A stretch of 49,354 nucleotides of DNA, from positions 1 to 49,354 of the forward strand of contig JAMPIG010000015.1 in assembly GCA_023662875.1 (NCBI GenBank). The letters run 5' to 3'. This stretch comes from Roseburia sp. GTDB lineage: Bacteria; Bacillota; Clostridia; Lachnospirales; Lachnospiraceae. The first letter of the stretch is position 1. Each line of letters opens with the position of its first letter. Of this stretch, positions 2,772 to 25,928 are shown piece by piece. A program made the position numbers and the translations under genes. A model generated the notes under the pieces. It worked only from the letters and a program-made list of their open reading frames with translations. It had not been told where the DNA came from and made no database searches.

Positions 2772-3221
2772 TCAAATTTCCAGCTCATAAACCCGATAGC
2801 GGGGAATTTCCTCGTACCATCCGAAGTAATCCCGGGGAACCTCCGTTATTTCTACAAGCTCGGCCCCCAGCCCCTCGATCGTTCGATAAGACGCCTTGTT
2901 ATCCTCCTCGCAGGTAAGATATATTTTTTCCATCCCGTGATACCGAGCCACCTTCAGAACAAGCTCCGCCGCTTCCCGGGCATAATGATGTCCCCGAAAG
3001 TCCTCGTCGATTTCATAGCCGATGTTGCCGTTATAGTAGGAATGGTAATTGTGGCCGATCCGGATACTGATCTTGCCGACCGGAGTGAAATCCGGCTTTC
3101 TTTGGATTTCATACCAGTAGTACGGTATCTCCCTCTCGTTGCCCGGGTTCTTCACAATCACCTTCAGCTTCAGCCGCTCGCTTTCCAGCTCGTCAAAGCC
3201 GTCGTGAAACGCAAATTCCAT
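2772..3221 (-). CDS. GNAT-family N-acetyltransferase
   Basis: A 149-residue acetyltransferase-like protein. The GNAT pattern is seen as a central beta pair (GKISIRIGHNYHSYYNGNIG), the GYEIDEDFRGHHYAREA stretch that matches the acetyl-CoA pyrophosphate-binding region (about 66-85), and a late IYLTCEEDNKASYRTIEGLG motif, where the Asn and the following helix are typical. The substrate is unknown. ATG is preceded by AGGAGG. The gene lies 17 bp after gpmI on the same strand, so the two are probably cotranscribed. Confidence 0.8.
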   Translation of the reverse strand: MEFAFHDGFDELESERLKLKVIVKNPGNEREIPYYWYEIQRKPDFTPVGKISIRIGHNYHSYYNGNIGYEIDEDFRGHHYAREAAELVLKVARYHGMEKIYLTCEEDNKASYRTIEGLGAELVEITEVPRDYFGWYEEIPRYRVYELEI

Positions 3222-3238
3222 ACGCTCCTCCTGTTTTT

Positions 3239-4789
3239 CTATTCCGCGCGCGCCTTCAACAGCGACTTCCCGGTCATCTCCGCAGGCTGTTCCATTCCCA
3301 TGATCTCGATCAGGGTAGGCACAATGTCCGCCAGACAGCCGCCCTCGCGCAGTCCGTAAGCCTCGTCATAATTTACCAGGATGAAGGGCACCTGATTTGT
3401 CGTGTGGGCCGTAAAGGGCTCGCCGGTCTCGTAATCGATCAGCTGCTCCGCGTTCCCGTGATCCGCGCAGATAAACAGGACTCCATTCACATCCTTCACC
3501 GCCTGAACCGCTTTTCCGACACACTCGTCAACAGTCTCCACAGCCTTCACCGCCGCCTCCAGAACCCCCGTATGGCCTACCATGTCCGGATTGGCGAAAT
3601 TGATAATGATAACGTCATAGCGGTCAGAGCGGATCGCCCCGCAGAGCTTCTCACAGACCTCGGGGGCGCTCATCTGCGGCTTCAGATCGTAAGTCGCTAC
3701 GTCCTTGGGCGAGTTCACCAGCACCCTGTCCTCGCCGGGATTAGGCTCCTCCACCCCGCCGTTAAAGAAGAAGGTGACATGAGCGTACTTCTCGGTCTCC
3801 GCAATGCGGGCCTGCTTTAAATGGTTTGCTGCCAGCCACTGGCCAAAGGTATTATCCACCGACTGCTTCTCAAAGGCCACTTCCTTATTCGGAATCGTGG
3901 GATCATAGTCGGAAAAGCACACATAGGTGATATCTTTTCTGGCACCCCGGTCAAAGCCCTGGAAATCGTCGTCACAGAAAGCCCTGCTGATCTCCCTCGC
4001 CCGATCGGGACGGAAATTAAAGAAGATAATGGAATCGCCGTCCTGTACCAGCGCCACAGGCTTTCCGTCCTCCAGCGCCAGCGTGGGCTTTACAAACTCG
4101 TCCGTCTCCTCCCGATCATAGGATTCCTGAATCGCGCAGATTCCGCAGTCCGCGGTCAGTCCCTCGCCCTTTGTCATAGCGTCGTAGGCAAGCTTGACGC
4201 GATCCCAGTTCTTGTCCCGATCCATCACATAATAACGCCCCATAACGGAAGCGATCTTACCTACGCCGATCTTCTCCATCTCCTGATTCAGCGCGATGGC
4301 ATAATCCTTTCCGCTGGCAGGCGGCGTATCCCGCCCGTCCAGGAAACAGTGTACATATACCTTTTCCAGGCCGTTGCGCTTCGCCAGCTCCAGCAGGGCG
4401 TAGAGATGGGTATTGTGGCTATGGACGCCTCCGTCGGACAGCAGTCCCATCAGGTGCAGCGCGCTGTCTTTTTTCTTACAGTTTTCCACCGCCTTCACCA
4501 GCGCCGGATTTTCAAAAAACGTCCCGTCCTGGATCTCCTTTGTAATCCTGGTCAGCTCCTGATACACAATGCGGCCCGCGCCCATGTTCAGATGCCCCAC
4601 CTCGGAATTGCCCATCTGACCCTCCGGCAGGCCCACCGCCATGCCGCTGGCGTTTCCTCTTACAAAGGGACAATCCTTCATCAGCCCGTCCATTACCGGC
4701 GTCTTCGCCTGCGCCACCGCATTTCCTTCCGTCTTCTCGTTTAAACCGTACCCATCCAGAATCATTAATACAACCGGTCTCTTATTCAT
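3239..4789 (-). CDS. gpmI: 2,3-bisphosphoglycerate-independent phosphoglycerate mutase
   Basis: Interconverts 3- and 2-phosphoglycerate in glycolysis using two Mn ions and a phosphoserine intermediate. The alkaline-phosphatase-superfamily core shows MILDGYG near the N-terminus and GNSEVGH carrying the catalytic serine; DGRDTPP, NFRPDRAREI and the late metal motif ADHGNAE are also present. Length (516 residues) is normal. I place the start at the ATG at 4789, not 4798: GGAGG directly abuts the upstream ATG but stands 9 nt before the downstream one. The GNAT gene follows in the same operon, and the upstream region is shared with a divergent CDF transporter. Confidence 0.95.
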   Translation of the reverse strand: MNKRPVVLMILDGYGLNEKTEGNAVAQAKTPVMDGLMKDCPFVRGNASGMAVGLPEGQMGNSEVGHLNMGAGRIVYQELTRITKEIQDGTFFENPALVKAVENCKKKDSALHLMGLLSDGGVHSHNTHLYALLELAKRNGLEKVYVHCFLDGRDTPPASGKDYAIALNQEMEKIGVGKIASVMGRYYVMDRDKNWDRVKLAYDAMTKGEGLTADCGICAIQESYDREETDEFVKPTLALEDGKPVALVQDGDSIIFFNFRPDRAREISRAFCDDDFQGFDRGARKDITYVCFSDYDPTIPNKEVAFEKQSVDNTFGQWLAANHLKQARIAETEKYAHVTFFFNGGVEEPNPGEDRVLVNSPKDVATYDLKPQMSAPEVCEKLCGAIRSDRYDVIIINFANPDMVGHTGVLEAAVKAVETVDECVGKAVQAVKDVNGVLFICADHGNAEQLIDYETGEPFTAHTTNQVPFILVNYDEAYGLREGGCLADIVPTLIEIMGMEQPAEMTGKSLLKARAE

Positions 4790-20309: not shown

Positions 20310-22598
20310 CTATATTCCCTGCTCCTGCACGATTCCCTTCCTCACAAAGTACTCTACAATCATCCTCTGCACCTTCGGCGGATACTTCAGCAATTTATAG
20401 GGGACTCCTGACTGACTTACCTTTTCCACAATTATAATTCCGTACTCTGTCCCCTTCTCCGTGGGCAGCTTAAGAAACGAACCATTGATATTCTGCTCAC
20501 TGACCAGCCCCTCCGCCATCAGCCAGGCCAGCATTTCGCCTAAAGCAGCCTTCTTGACTCCTTCCACAGTACAGATGCGGTTCAATTCTTCCTTAATTTC
20601 CGAGGCATAGAGAGAATCCCGATATAGAAAGTCATCCGCGTCATTTTCCGTCAAATAGAACGCCCCTTTTCTACCCTTCCTGGATTTCCCTTTCCTTCCG
20701 CCGTCTGCATTTCCGGCCCCATCCTTCCGGCTCCCGGCTTCCTCCCCCGCCATACTGACGACCGCGCCCGGATGCGCCTCCAGGAACAGCCGGATTGCCT
20801 CCAGGAATCTCGCTCCGTACTTCTCCCGCTTGTTCTCTCCTACCCCGGATACCCGCAACAGCTCCCGCTCATCCCCCGGCAGCTTTACACACATATCAAT
20901 CAACGTCTTATCCCCGAACACAATATAAGGCGGCAGCCCCTCCTCCCGGGCAATCTCCCGCCGCAGCCCCCGCAGCGCCTCAAACAGGTCATATCCCGCC
21001 CCCGTAAGGACATCCGTGCTCCTTTTATGGGCGGAACGACTCCTCCGCTCCGGCTCCTTTTCCTCGTGGACGCGCAGAATCACCCGGCGGCCTTCCTCCT
21101 TTAGCGGCTCGATATTGCCCAGCCGCAAAACGCTGTACTGATCCTCTGTCTGATAGAGATACCCCTCCGCCACCATCTGATAAATCAGAGAACGGATTTC
21201 ATCCTCACCGCTGTCTTTCAATTTCCCAAAGGAACGGTAACTTACCGTCCCAAGCTCCCGCAGCCTGGCTCGGTTTGCCCCCTGCAAGGTTCCGATAACA
21301 ACCGTTATTCCATATCGTCCCCTCGTCTCGGCCACACAGTTGACCACCCACTTCGCTTCCTCCGTTCTGTCGACTTCACGATATTCCCTCTGGCAGCCTC
21401 CGCAATTACCGCAGGGGTTCCCTGTCCTTTCCCCAAAGTAATTCAGGATATAATTCCGCAGGCATCCCGCCGTCCTGCAGTAACCCTCCATAATCTGGAG
21501 CCGCCGGATATCCCTCTGCTTTACTCCTTCGATCTCCTCTTCGTCCAAGTCCGAAAAATCCTTTTTCTCCAGAAGAAACTTATTGATCAGAATGTCCTGA
21601 GGCGAAAAAAGCAGGATGCATTGCGCCGGCTCCCCGTCCCTTCCCGCGCGGCCGGCCTCCTGATAATAATTCTCCATACTCTGCGGCATATTATAGTGAA
21701 TCACATACCGGACGTCCGACTTATCGATCCCCATTCCAAAAGCGTTGGTAGCCACCATCACAGGCAGCCTGTCATACAGAAAATTTTCCTGGCTTTCCTT
21801 TCTGGCACCGCTCTCCATCCCCGCATGATATTTTGCTGCCAAAACGCCCCTTGCCAGAAGCTTCTCATAAAGCTCATCCACGTTCTTTCTGGTGGCACAG
21901 TAAATGATACCGCTGTCCTCCGGGTGCTTCTCCACATAATCGATGACATAAGTGTCTTTTCCTCGGATACTCTCCACGCTGTAATAAAGATTCGCCCGGT
22001 CAAATCCTGTTACGGTCACCTTCGGATTCCGCAGCTTCAGCGCGCATAAAATATCATCCGTTACTTCTTTCGTTGCCGTCGCGGTAAAGGCGCTGACAAT
22101 CGGGCGCGTCGGCAGACCTTCGATAAACTCTACGATCTTCAGGTAGCTTGGCCGAAAATCCTGGCCCCACTGAGAAATACAATGCGCCTCGTCCACTGTC
22201 ACCATCGAAATCTCTGCCTGCCCGGCAAAGCATAAGAACTCCTGGCTGAGAAGCCGCTCCGGCGCGACATAGATAATCTTGTACGCTCCGTTTTCCGCCA
22301 GCTTCAAAGCCCTCCGAATCTGCGTCTCCGTCAGCGAGGAATTGATATAGGCGGCATGAATCCCCGCCTCGTTCAGGGCTCTGACCTGATCCTGCATCAG
22401 GGAAATCAGCGGTGAAATAACAATCGTTATCCCTGAAAACAGCAGGGCGGGAATCTGATAACAGATCGACTTTCCCGCCCCCGTCGGCATAACGGCCAGA
22501 CTGTCCTGCCCGTTCAAAATCGCCTGGATAATCTCTTCCTGTCCCCTCCGGAAGGACTCATATCCAAAATAGAATTTTAAGGTTTCTTTTGGGCTCAT
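20310..22598 (-). CDS. recQ: ATP-dependent DNA helicase RecQ
   Basis: A 762-residue 3'-5' superfamily 2 helicase. Motif I is MPTGAGKSICYQIP, motif II is VDEAHCISQWGQDFR, with the RecQ aromatic loop, and motif VI is QEAGRAGRDG. The zinc-binding RQC segment has CRTAGCLRNYILNYFGE and CGNCGGCQ. An HRDC domain (about 540-610) is followed by a basic Gly/Lys linker and a C-terminal winged-helix-like domain, a long form common in Clostridia. The ribosome site is GAGGACAAGGAG just before the ATG. The upstream three-gene cassette ends 32 bp before this start with no visible terminator, so recQ may be read from its promoter. Confidence 0.95.
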   Translation of the reverse strand: MSPKETLKFYFGYESFRRGQEEIIQAILNGQDSLAVMPTGAGKSICYQIPALLFSGITIVISPLISLMQDQVRALNEAGIHAAYINSSLTETQIRRALKLAENGAYKIIYVAPERLLSQEFLCFAGQAEISMVTVDEAHCISQWGQDFRPSYLKIVEFIEGLPTRPIVSAFTATATKEVTDDILCALKLRNPKVTVTGFDRANLYYSVESIRGKDTYVIDYVEKHPEDSGIIYCATRKNVDELYEKLLARGVLAAKYHAGMESGARKESQENFLYDRLPVMVATNAFGMGIDKSDVRYVIHYNMPQSMENYYQEAGRAGRDGEPAQCILLFSPQDILINKFLLEKKDFSDLDEEEIEGVKQRDIRRLQIMEGYCRTAGCLRNYILNYFGERTGNPCGNCGGCQREYREVDRTEEAKWVVNCVAETRGRYGITVVIGTLQGANRARLRELGTVSYRSFGKLKDSGEDEIRSLIYQMVAEGYLYQTEDQYSVLRLGNIEPLKEEGRRVILRVHEEKEPERRSRSAHKRSTDVLTGAGYDLFEALRGLRREIAREEGLPPYIVFGDKTLIDMCVKLPGDERELLRVSGVGENKREKYGARFLEAIRLFLEAHPGAVVSMAGEEAGSRKDGAGNADGGRKGKSRKGRKGAFYLTENDADDFLYRDSLYASEIKEELNRICTVEGVKKAALGEMLAWLMAEGLVSEQNINGSFLKLPTEKGTEYGIIIVEKVSQSGVPYKLLKYPPKVQRMIVEYFVRKGIVQEQGI

Positions 22599-22630
22599 AG
22601 CTCCTTGTCCTCGATGTAGTGTTTTAGCTA

Positions 22631-23059
22631 TTACAAATACGGCCGTATTTGAAACTCTGTGATCTCCCCTTCTTTTTTGCTCACCAGTTCAAACAAATTT
22701 TCTTTTGTAGCAAACAAATTCTTCGGATTTCGACCAATAATAAGATACTGATTATTCCCGTCTGTGGAAATATATTTTCTCGCCTCGTCATTTAACAGAA
22801 TATCCGCATTATCTATTACAATCAATTTTCCTCTTGTTTGTTTCAGAATTTCGTGAATATTTCTTTGATAATCCAAATAATTGAAACAGACAATACTTGA
22901 GTTTAACGCCATGCATTCTTTTATACATAAAAACACAACTGTCTTCCCGGTTGCCGACGGGCCGGTAAGAAGCGTAAGATTGTTTGTAAAAGTAAAATTT
23001 ATAACAAATGAAGTATGAACCGTTGAAAAATGCTCCATTATGATTGGTTTACTTTTCAT
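22631..23059 (-). CDS. Minimal P-loop ATPase (third gene of the unknown cassette)
   Basis: A 142-residue ATPase-like protein with Walker A GPSATGKT (about 33-40), Walker B LIVIDNADIL (about 79-88) and a sensor-1-like YLIIGRN. It is only a core domain with no C-terminal lid, so it probably acts with partners. The start overlaps the end of the preceding gene by 11 bp, evidence of tight coupling. Base composition is AT-richer than recQ and the lar genes, suggesting acquisition. The last codons form an 18-bp perfect palindrome. Function not recognised. Confidence 0.7.
   Translation of the reverse strand: MKSKPIIMEHFSTVHTSFVINFTFTNNLTLLTGPSATGKTVVFLCIKECMALNSSIVCFNYLDYQRNIHEILKQTRGKLIVIDNADILLNDEARKYISTDGNNQYLIIGRNPKNLFATKENLFELVSKKEGEITEFQIRPYL
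22634..22651. repeat. 18-bp perfect palindrome at the cassette/recQ junction
   Basis: CAAATACGGCCGTATTTG encodes the last six residues of the P-loop ATPase and directly precedes its stop codon, 36 bp before recQ. It could be a weak terminator stem, an operator or an element boundary. Confidence 0.5.
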
Positions 23060-23492
23060 TCTCCCACCATTCCTTTAATGCGTCATAATCCTGAATGATA
23101 TCTGTCTTGCGGACTGTACAGACTCTAACCGGCCCCATGTCAAAAGGAATTAACGCGTAATCGCTGTAAACCGCTCCTTCTTCCATGCCATACAATAGCT
23201 CCAGCGCATTATCACCGCACTCCTTCAAACAAAACACCTTATCGGGATAATATAGAATATTCAAAACAGTTTTACAGCCTGTCGATAGACAGTCAACATC
23301 CAGCGTCACTCCATTAAACGAGGACTCTATCTTGTACTTTCCGAGAAGCTTCGCCCCATCTATCCGCTCCGCAATTTCGCTGGCTCGCTCGTCCAGTTTA
23401 TTTACCGTTTTTTGATTAAAAAACACATCGTTTAATTCAATATACTCCTTGTCCGGCGAAATGTCTTCCTTATTCTTGTAGATTGTAATCAT
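23049..23492 (-). CDS. DUF4869-like protein (second gene of the unknown cassette)
   Basis: A 147-residue soluble protein. MITIYKNKEDI at the start, LSTGCKTVLNILYYPDKVF in the middle and LKECGDNALELLYGMEEG match what I recall of the DUF4869 family of Firmicutes, whose role is unknown. The ATG at 23492 overlaps the stop of the upstream gene (ATGA), with GGAG 9 nt before it; the longer open frame upstream has no site. Its end overlaps the start of the ATPase gene by 11 bp. Confident as a gene; family name moderate. Confidence 0.65.
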   Translation of the reverse strand: MITIYKNKEDISPDKEYIELNDVFFNQKTVNKLDERASEIAERIDGAKLLGKYKIESSFNGVTLDVDCLSTGCKTVLNILYYPDKVFCLKECGDNALELLYGMEEGAVYSDYALIPFDMGPVRVCTVRKTDIIQDYDALKEWWENEK

Positions 23493-24205
23493 AATCCCAG
23501 CTCCATCCTTGCCTTTCCAAATTCGCTCGCTAAAGAAGTTCCAATATAAATACTCTTCATTTTCTCTTCCAGAGACAATCTTTCCGAATCCAAACCACAA
23601 ACATCATCTTTCTCCCTGCCCACCCACTCGCAGCAAGAACAAATCCAGCAATCGCCAATGTTTTTTTTCGATACTTCAAACCCGGTATTTCTTGTCAGAT
23701 CAAACAACAGCTTCGCAGATAACTGCTCGATATTATGGTTCTTCAGATTATCATCATACAACACGATTTCCTGAATCCCCTTATAATTCATCTCGTCCGC
23801 CCGAAAAGCTTCCAGCAACAGTTCTCTGGCCCGAATTTCCGTTGACCTTTTTTCTCGAAATTCATCATCTGGCGCGTAAAGCCAATCCATCAGTTTATCG
23901 AATTCCAAAAGAATAAATTCAAAGCAGATAACATCCAGCAAATGAACATTACTTTTCTTTTCGGCATACTTTTTTAACAACCGCCGCTCCTGATAAGCCT
24001 GCAGATTATCAAAGGAATTGTCAAATACTATGATATACTTGTTTTCACAATCCGGCAATGCCCCTACCGCTTTCACAAGCTCGCTGTTATTCCCTTTGCT
24101 TTCCACGATTATATTAGGATCCAGCTGATGCATCAGCGTTTCCCAGAATACATAGCCCGCTTTGTCTTTATGGTCTTCTATCCATAAATAAATTTTTGTT
24201 GACAT
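23489..24205 (-). CDS. Toprim-like protein (first gene of the unknown cassette)
   Basis: A 238-residue protein of unknown function. It begins with a beta strand and acidic motif (IYLWIEDHKDKAGYVFWETL), followed by IIVESKG, then YIIVFDNSFDN, and a LLDVICFEFILLEF strand/helix. This order of Glu and spaced Asp on hydrophobic strands resembles Toprim-like domains of nucleases; the similarity is by eye. A compact cysteine cluster CWICSCCEW plus a later Cys (about 188-206) looks metal-binding. AGGAG precedes the ATG. First of three overlapping genes, AT-rich, with about 230 AT-rich bases upstream. Confidence 0.6.
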   Translation of the reverse strand: MSTKIYLWIEDHKDKAGYVFWETLMHQLDPNIIVESKGNNSELVKAVGALPDCENKYIIVFDNSFDNLQAYQERRLLKKYAEKKSNVHLLDVICFEFILLEFDKLMDWLYAPDDEFREKRSTEIRARELLLEAFRADEMNYKGIQEIVLYDDNLKNHNIEQLSAKLLFDLTRNTGFEVSKKNIGDCWICSCCEWVGREKDDVCGLDSERLSLEEKMKSIYIGTSLASEFGKARMELGL

Positions 24206-24572
24206 TTGTCCGTCTCCTGTAAATTCTTTAACCGAAATCCACTAAAGCACTTTTTTCATAAGTCATAATTAAAATTTATCGAAATATCCAACCAGTACCA
24301 TTCTTTTACAGGGTACTCTTTCTTATGCTAATCATACACCTCTCTGTATACTATAGCACACTCCCCGCTCAATTTCAATATACACTGCCTCCTGCCCTTT
24401 CCTTTTATCAACAATAATTTAACACTGACTCCCATTCTCCTTACTCTTCCGTCCCCACTCCCATATTTACAAAATCCCCTTTCTTCAGTATACTGAAATC
24501 ACAGGAATGCAAACCCGAAAATACGGGAACCACAGAAATACAAAAATCACATTCCACAGGAGGCGTACCCCC
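24206..24572. other. AT-rich intergenic region between divergent units
   Basis: It contains the start regions of the unknown cassette (leftward) and the GH43 gene (rightward). The only clear symmetric site is TTCAGTATACTGAA at 24484-24497, 75 bp before the GH43 start, a possible operator for sugar-responsive control. No gene is seen inside. Confidence 0.45.
24484..24497 (+). promoter_or_regulatory. 14-bp perfect palindrome upstream of GH43, candidate operator
   Basis: TTCAGTATACTGAA. Its position between the divergent genes and near GH43 fits a repressor site; no regulator gene is next to it. Confidence 0.35.
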
Positions 24573-25928
24573 ATGAACTTTACCTATCCCCAGGAGCCGC
24601 CGCGCCCCGCTCCCAAGCCACAGCGTCCGCTTTTCGGTTCGAAGGCAGCCCCTCTGCCGCCCCACAGCGTCTGGATGATCCACGATCCGGCGATCTACCG
24701 CGATCCGGTCAGCAATGACTATCTTTTATATTGCACCGGCGGCCGGGCTTTTCGCTCCTCCGACCTGATCCGCTGGACATCCCTGGGGCGGGTAGTCGAA
24801 GATCCCCCTGCCTGCGCCCGGGAATGGACCCGCAGCAAGGCGATCTGGGCTCCGGATATCATTAAGGTCGACAACGAATACCGTCTCTATTGTTCCAATT
24901 CCTCCTTCGGCGTCCGACAGTCCTGTATTTTCCTCGCCGTATCGGATCGGGCGGAGGGGCCTTTTCAGCCAAAGGGAATTGTACTTCGCTCCTCCGACCG
25001 GCTCTACGTCAACGCAATCGACGCCAATATCGCGGAAGATGTCCGCACCGGGAAGCAGTATATGGCGTATGGCTCCTTCTGGGGCGGCTGCCACATAATC
25101 GAGCTGGATCGGAAGACAGGATACGCAAAGAACGGGCCTGACGACATGGGCTTCTGCCTCGCCCGCCGTCCCGATTGGGCGGACACCGCGATCGAAGGCC
25201 CCTATATTATTTATCATCCGGATATGGATTATTATTATTTGTTCGTCTCCTACGCATCCTTAAAAAGCGATTACAATATCCGGGTGGGAAGGAGCCGGGA
25301 TATTACAGGCCCCTACCTGGATCACAACGGCCGGGATCTGCGGGATCTGTCGGATGAAGACGCGACTCTGGGCTATATGCTTGCCTGCGGGTATAAATTT
25401 GACGACGACCCGAACGGTTATATGGGCCCGGGACATAATTCCGTCCTGCGGGATAAGGACGGGGAATGGTATCTGGTTTCCCACATCCGCCCCCACAACC
25501 TCCGGCAGGAAGAGCCCTCCTTCCTTCAAATCCGCAAAATGCTCTGGACGGAGGACGGATGGCCCCTGGTCTCCCCGGAGCCTTACGCGGGAGAAAGACT
25601 GCAGCCGGTCGCTCCGCAGCTGCTCTCGGGCAGCTATGAGCGGATAAAGCTGACCCCTCAGGTTCCTCAGGGGACACTGACCTCTGTCAAAATGACCCTG
25701 CGGCCGGACGGAACCGGGCTTCTGGCGGATTCCGTCCGGATCCGCTGGGAGACGACGGGCTTCTGCTCCCTCAAGATAAGGTACGCTAATACCACAGAAG
25801 AATTCCAGGCTCTGGCAGCCTGGGACTGGGAAGCCTGGCGTCCCACCCTGGTTCTGACCGGATGCGACCAAAAGCACATCTGTATCTGGGGGAAGAAATT
25901 CGATCCTCCCGCCGCTCCGCCGGTATAA
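24573..25928 (+). CDS. Glycoside hydrolase family 43, probable endo-1,5-alpha-L-arabinanase
   Basis: A 451-residue five-bladed beta-propeller hydrolase expected to cut arabinan chains. The family triad can be placed: the base Asp in IHDPAIYRDP, the pKa-tuning Asp in NAIDANIAED and the acid Glu in AIEGPYIIYHP. GSFWGGCHIIELD and GPGHNSV support the arabinanase subgroup over xylosidases. A C-terminal beta-rich domain (about 350-451) follows. The start is at 24573 with AGGAGG 9 nt upstream. No signal peptide is seen, so it probably acts on imported oligosaccharides. It stands alone, without a transporter or regulator nearby. Confidence 0.88.
   Translation: MNFTYPQEPPRPAPKPQRPLFGSKAAPLPPHSVWMIHDPAIYRDPVSNDYLLYCTGGRAFRSSDLIRWTSLGRVVEDPPACAREWTRSKAIWAPDIIKVDNEYRLYCSNSSFGVRQSCIFLAVSDRAEGPFQPKGIVLRSSDRLYVNAIDANIAEDVRTGKQYMAYGSFWGGCHIIELDRKTGYAKNGPDDMGFCLARRPDWADTAIEGPYIIYHPDMDYYYLFVSYASLKSDYNIRVGRSRDITGPYLDHNGRDLRDLSDEDATLGYMLACGYKFDDDPNGYMGPGHNSVLRDKDGEWYLVSHIRPHNLRQEEPSFLQIRKMLWTEDGWPLVSPEPYAGERLQPVAPQLLSGSYERIKLTPQVPQGTLTSVKMTLRPDGTGLLADSVRIRWETTGFCSLKIRYANTTEEFQALAAWDWEAWRPTLVLTGCDQKHICIWGKKFDPPAAPPV

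Follow-up and report, generated by a model that had tools for sequence, protein, structure and literature searches.

Closest described systems

In OLD proteins an ATP-binding cassette (ABC)-type ATPase is coupled to a Toprim domain, and OLD class 2 corresponds to GajA of the Gabija system. PARIS systems likewise pair an ATPase with a Toprim protein, either split or fused, as set out in sections of PMC9122126 and PMC12409363, and a section of the latter describes AriA as holding AriB. We report a three-gene cassette with a similar split or fused pairing, found in a 49,354-nucleotide stretch of Roseburia sp. DNA (assembly GCA_023662875.1, contig JAMPIG010000015.1; this whole stretch is called the window). 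It consists of the following genes:

23489..24205, minus strand, gene 1 (T), Toprim-like putative effector of 238 amino acids
23049..23492 (ATG at 23492), minus strand, gene 2 (D), DUF4869 protein of 147 amino acids
22631..23059, minus strand, gene 3 (A), minimal P-loop ATPase of 142 amino acids without a signature subdomain

An earlier note on this DNA described three overlapping genes that are AT-richer than their neighbours, and the coordinates and GC values agree: genes 1 and 2 overlap by 4 base pairs (bp; 23489-23492), genes 2 and 3 by 11 bp (23049-23059), and the GC content of the trio is 0.37-0.41 versus ~0.46-0.60 in flanking genes. We see an even chance that these genes form a self-contained, mobile unit of ATPase and Toprim protein, a split and miniature counterpart of OLD and PARIS, in which a composite ATP site would control the Toprim protein in anti-phage defence.

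The resemblance to PARIS includes a weak DUF4435 match in gene 1 (E-value 0.0075 for the window copy and 0.0017 at best, with matches at E-values up to 0.1 in 3 of 13 gene 1 members) and the presence of AriA among the structural matches of DUF4869. However, the DUF4435 score of gene 1, 16.5 bits, lies under the cut-off of 27, and gene 3 has 142 amino acids whereas the AriA chain has 464. PARIS also has two components, whereas the present module adds DUF4869, with all three parts in 86 of 105 copies; these copies were gathered through DUF4869, and modules without it were not searched for. In PARIS, an anti-restriction protein sets off the arrest of growth. At E-values up to 1, neither AAA_15 nor AAA_21 matches gene 3, and one fused relative matches AAA_15 with an E-value of 0.066. 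Weak PADLOC matches link gene 3 to the N-termini of LmuB, PtuA and AriAB (E-values 2e-7 to 4e-4; 0.00036 for AriAB), and weak PDB matches link it to the N-termini of the retron Ec83 ATPase and PtuA (0.016-0.027).

The likeness to OLD lies in the coupling of an ABC-type ATPase to a Toprim domain and in gene 1 itself, which carries invariant predicted Toprim acidic residues (E/D/E) and whose model finds OLD Toprim or C-terminal regions as its top Foldseek matches, although the scores are weak and the DxD motif is altered. Unlike OLD, the module has an ATPase of ~140 amino acids, too short for a dimerisation insert or a signature subdomain, and DUF4869 is a separate subunit. Gabija differs in that no GajB UvrD-like helicase is among the three genes; the adjoining helicase is RecQ, which is not a conserved neighbour. 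Csn2 chains, too, are among the DUF4869 structural matches. The trio would work like systems of the OLD and PARIS kind, yet it lacks part of the features that define membership of either.

Conservation of the three parts

Copies of the module were taken from fetched loci, including 40 further regions, and weak, short or stop-bearing matches were mostly left out. This yields 117 unique DUF4869 copies, 105 of them away from contig edges. Both an ATPase and a Toprim protein adjoin DUF4869 in the 86 complete copies, as separate genes in 44 and fused to each other in 42, and so the earlier proposal stands that a Toprim-like protein, DUF4869 and a minimal ATPase make up a compact module, with its parts mostly together. 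Among the remaining copies, seven have only an ATPase, two only a Toprim match and ten neither. Some of the seven have a neighbour that resembles a diverged Toprim protein (L249, judged by eye), and in one Toprim-only copy (L246) the Toprim match lies within the DUF4869 reading frame.

Gene order is 1-2-3 in the clade of the window and 2-3-1 in another. In a third group, DUF4869 is followed by one protein of ~330 amino acids in which a gene 3-like ATPase precedes a gene 1-like domain. That the same three parts occur both fused and rearranged is strong evidence that they work jointly.

Other searches agree on the composition. Relatives of gene 1 occur in 23 of 299 family genomes, which represent 298 genera and include its own, and genes 2 and 3 are also present at 19 of 23 other gene 1 loci. 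A gene 2 scan of named genomes gives 21 loci, 16 of them with the complete trio; of the five others, most reach a contig edge. Within the genus, gene 3 has matches in 12 of 101 genomes, its own included. With a broad DUF4869 profile, matches are found in 61 of the 299 family genomes and, among 398 genomes sampled across the phylum, in that of the window alone. Named gene 2 matches are mostly labelled Lachnospiraceae or other Clostridia, and two metagenome-assembled genomes are labelled Bacteroidota. The modules in these two (L038 and L041, labelled Muribaculum and Alistipes) are close to a Lachnospiraceae module (L042), reflecting either a binning error or recent inter-phylum transfer. The module also appears to be undescribed, as had been supposed: the name DUF4869 was not found in a full-text literature search, nor the trio in any title or abstract found, supplementary tables and preprints lying outside the search.

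A proposed divided ATP site

The features of genes 2 and 3 that bear on ATP binding are these:

22940..22963, minus strand, Walker A of gene 3, residues 33-40
22808..22825, minus strand, Walker B of gene 3, residues 79-84 (LIVIDN)
23268..23288, minus strand, LSTGCKT, residues 69-75 of gene 2, ABC signature-like motif
23202..23237, minus strand, FCLKECGDNALE, residues 86-97 of gene 2, read as a degenerate Walker B / D-loop, with E91

Motif counts are based on unique sequences above the length limit, namely 98 ATPases, 109 DUF4869 proteins, 41 split Toprim proteins and 91 ATPase-DUF4869 pairs. Gene 3 had been credited with Walker A and B motifs in 142 amino acids, and both are conserved in the 98 ATPases: G33, S35 and K39 in all, G38 in 97, and D83 in 92, the other six having E. 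The 38 residues that separate the two motifs are, in our reading, too few for an ABC signature subdomain.

The assignment of gene 2 to DUF4869 is secured by a score of 34.6 bits against PF16163, for which the curated Pfam cut-off is 28.9. That entry names no function; here the family is placed in a module with an ATPase and a Toprim protein. DUF4869 resembles the signature-bearing half of an ABC ATPase, made as a protein of its own. The earlier note missed this feature, and also the fusion of ATPase and Toprim protein that 42 of the 86 complete copies show. The pattern [LI]SxG occurs in 105 of 109 DUF4869 copies (S70 in 108, G72 in 106), and in the following motif C92 is kept in 108 and G93 in all 109. 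The signature-like motif also lines up in the profile alignment of DUF4869 with ABC C-lobes. Although DUF4869 thus has an LSGGQ-like signature as ABC proteins do, it differs from the superfamily at Walker A and Walker B: no P-loop was found in the DUF4869 alignments, and its Walker B residues are unmatched in the ABC profile alignment. Judged from sequence, the family looks like half a protein and not a full member of the ABC ATPase superfamily.

It is rather unlikely, in our estimation, that DUF4869 is instead an unrelated adaptor or sensor whose LSxG motif and ABC-like fold are convergent, with gene 3 an ordinary, self-sufficient P-loop ATPase. Such convergence would fit several results that weigh against an ABC origin: the gene 2 model (predicted local distance difference test score 94) resembles ABC and SMC heads with low scores, Pfam and PDB sequence searches give no ABC match for DUF4869, and an SMC-only profile aligns weakly. 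It fits poorly with the hhalign comparison of DUF4869 with ABC C-lobes, which covers 74 columns with an E-value of 8.9e-6 and is equalled in 0 of 150 shuffles, and with the place of S70 and G72 among the 11 positions that are at least 80% conserved across the 109 very divergent copies. In addition, the 50 structural match rows listed for DUF4869 are all ABC-type chains, Csn2 included.

The two proteins also show a reciprocal glutamate pattern. In the window, residue 84 of gene 3, directly after the aspartate of Walker B, is N; all 41 fused copies have E there. Among the 91 pairs, E follows the Walker B aspartate (or the E in its place) in 40 of 40 fused ATPases, and none of their 40 DUF4869 partners has E at position 91. 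Split ATPases have N or R after the aspartate in 49 of 51 cases, and E91 is present in 47 of the 51 DUF4869 partners; the two split exceptions, L138 and L242, fall within the fused clade. The glutamate never occurs in both proteins of a pair, and two pairs lack it altogether. This pattern fits a shared active site. On a quick tree with long-branch warnings, a single change of the ATPase residue separates two deep clades, and DUF4869 residue 91 changed three times, so the pattern reflects one event and not statistical covariation.

We have moderate confidence that the DUF4869 signature half completes, in trans, the sole ATP site of a signature-less ATPase, that in one lineage it also gives the catalytic glutamate, and that the resulting switch governs a Toprim nuclease. 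Heterodimeric ABC ATPases in which one of the sites is dead offer a parallel, and we know of no case in which the signature and Walker halves are made as two small proteins of their own. The signature of an ABC ATPase acts in trans, on ATP bound by the partner, and in OLD ATPases it is reported as degenerate or absent (PMC7049728).

The Toprim-like protein

Gene 1 is homologous at the profile level to the Toprim domain of the fused copies (hhalign, 97.6%, E-value 3e-12), 22 of which were used for comparison. Its candidate functional residues are as follows:

24176..24178, minus strand, E10, predicted Toprim glutamate
24008..24022, minus strand, D62-D66, predicted Toprim acidic pair
23918..23920, minus strand, E96, third predicted acidic residue
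23597..23650, minus strand, cysteine cluster C186, C191, C192 and C203, possible metal site

The acidic arrangement and cysteine cluster were both singled out by the earlier note, and their positions are conserved in 41 split relatives. E10 is kept in all 38 split copies that reach it, 3 of the 41 rows being without that end; D62 and E96 are kept in 41 of 41 and D66 in 37. The fused counterparts of E10, D62 and E96 are E166, D211 and E241, each present in 22 of 22 copies, and the second D of the pair is not retained there. Cys186 and Cys191 occur in 38 of 41 split relatives, and Cys192 and Cys203 in 35. The cluster lies in a low-confidence region of the gene 1 model and is not present in five aligned fused copies.

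The DxD motif is altered, reading DNSFD in the window and resembling DGAAFG in fused copies, as might be expected if gene 1 were a catalytically dead Toprim protein that binds nucleic acid or partners in a module that regulates and does not cut. We consider this improbable, since E10, D62, E96 and their fused counterparts are invariant wherever covered, as a metal site predicts.

Movement of the module

The module is patchy in distribution, occupies many chromosomal sites and is mobile between genera. After contigs fetched twice are left out, 25 different pairs of loci share a stretch of 1 kilobase (kb) or more with a DNA identity of 80% or higher, and in 23 of them similarity stops no more than 170 bp from the module; in the exceptions, L035/L036 and L100/L102, the surroundings are also common. 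Across eight genomes with the 2-3-1 order, 26 of 28 pairs show higher identity in the trio than in recA (for example, 87.8% versus 75.7%), and the same holds for the 1-2-3 pair G003/G280 (85.5% versus 77.2%). The trio of the window, when set against its three comparison partners, shows lower identity than recA does. Trio identity above that of recA, together with similarity that ends near the module, indicates that, in those groups at least, the cassette moves horizontally without its surroundings. Purifying selection acts on each of the three genes, with ratios of nonsynonymous to synonymous substitution rates of 0.055-0.187 (22 of 24 comparisons had a computable synonymous rate).

A lone cassette at many chromosomal sites, with no common ends, could also be a selfish one. 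The same module might be toxin-antitoxin-like, DUF4869 or the A-D pair neutralising a toxic Toprim protein and the whole being kept by addiction and not by phage. DUF4869 matches number up to 13 per genome, the family is partnerless in 10 of 105 copies, and searches of phage, viral and plasmid sequences, each with part of the module, gave one partial match, a result that also speaks against a role in defence. Even so, we think addiction a fairly unlikely explanation: three conserved parts with an intact ATPase exceed what a toxin-antitoxin pair needs, the fused ATPase-Toprim proteins hold two of these parts in one chain, and the nearest systems by fold or motif (OLD, PARIS, Gabija and Septu) are defence ATPases or nucleases.

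The ten DUF4869 genes without a recognised partner (L035, L088, L115, L118, L132, L216, L217, L226, L237 and L243) are possibly orphan regulators, immunity genes or decayed modules. In the case of L035, the near-identical contig L036 has gene 1 preceding DUF4869. The 13 matches in one genome (G111) are of several types (L080, L083, L125, L215, L225, L228 and L247-L251), which makes it a candidate for the study of paralogue expansion.

Proposed mechanism and role in defence

In the anti-phage model, gene 3 would correspond to an ABC/SMC-like ATPase reduced to its P-loop core, with no signature subdomain. DUF4869 would be a degenerate ABC half on a chain of its own, with the signature retained (LSxGxKT) and Walker A absent. 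One ATP would be enclosed between the two proteins, DUF4869 supplying the signature in trans. In the clade of the window, which has N after the gene 3 Walker B aspartate and E91 in DUF4869, neither protein would hydrolyse ATP without the other. Through its nucleotide state, the A-D pair would keep the gene 1 Toprim protein inactive, and a phage trigger would free it to cut nucleic acid (tRNA or DNA), stopping the infected cell. The trigger and the nuclease activity, like the composite site, are inferred, and the trio probably has an anti-phage role.

The flanks examined hold mainly housekeeping genes, which argues against defence, and some of the 134 flank proteins have defence-type matches in a scan that had no control. 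Part of PMC10568477 describes class 1 OLD genes as not near other defence genes.

The recQ neighbourhood

Two further features adjoin the trio:

20310..22598, same strand as gene 3, recQ, downstream of gene 3
24350..24378, minus strand, promoter-like site ~145 bp upstream of gene 1 (consensus scan, 10/12 with TG)

The arrangement invites the idea that trio and recQ form a genome-maintenance operon. Gene 3 and recQ are separated by 32 bp on the same strand with no visible terminator, as first described, and a scan of 22300-24600 found no terminator-like site between them; its sole such site, 24553-24577, reflects a count no higher than chance. An operon with recQ is nevertheless very improbable. 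No recQ match lies beside the other compared modules, whose flanks range from none to ~8 kb, and neither gene 1 nor gene 2 is near any of 11 recQ loci of the genus, one of which (L155) has only 0.2 kb of upstream sequence; gene 3 is below the length limit of that scan. The GC difference is sharp, and gene 1 is in just 23 of 299 family genomes. The association with recQ suggested earlier therefore falls away, and recQ is a chance neighbour of the trio. The promoter-like site is not evidence of function, because the region has 9 such sites and shuffles give 5.0 (standard deviation 2.2).

Two other loci are of note. Elsewhere in the genome of the window (L112, contig C142), positions 3931-4125 hold a decayed second gene 3 copy (residues 78-142, 80% identity, two stops). 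It lies ~0.7 kb downstream of an AAA_21 ATPase fragment (2858-3259) and near genes that by eye resemble spoIIGA and sigE, and the region is perhaps a decayed defence-type cluster. In L034 (2392-8132), a trio stands between genes that by eye resemble sigE and sigG.

Implications

The module gives the uncharacterised DUF4869 family a testable role, in what would be a miniature three-part relative of the ATPase-Toprim systems that guard bacteria. It may also serve as a natural experiment: an ABC ATP site would be divided between two proteins, so that each half can be mutated on its own and combined freely with the other. If the composite site is real, it would amount to an architecture new among ABC-type immune ATPases and would supply a function for a domain of unknown function.
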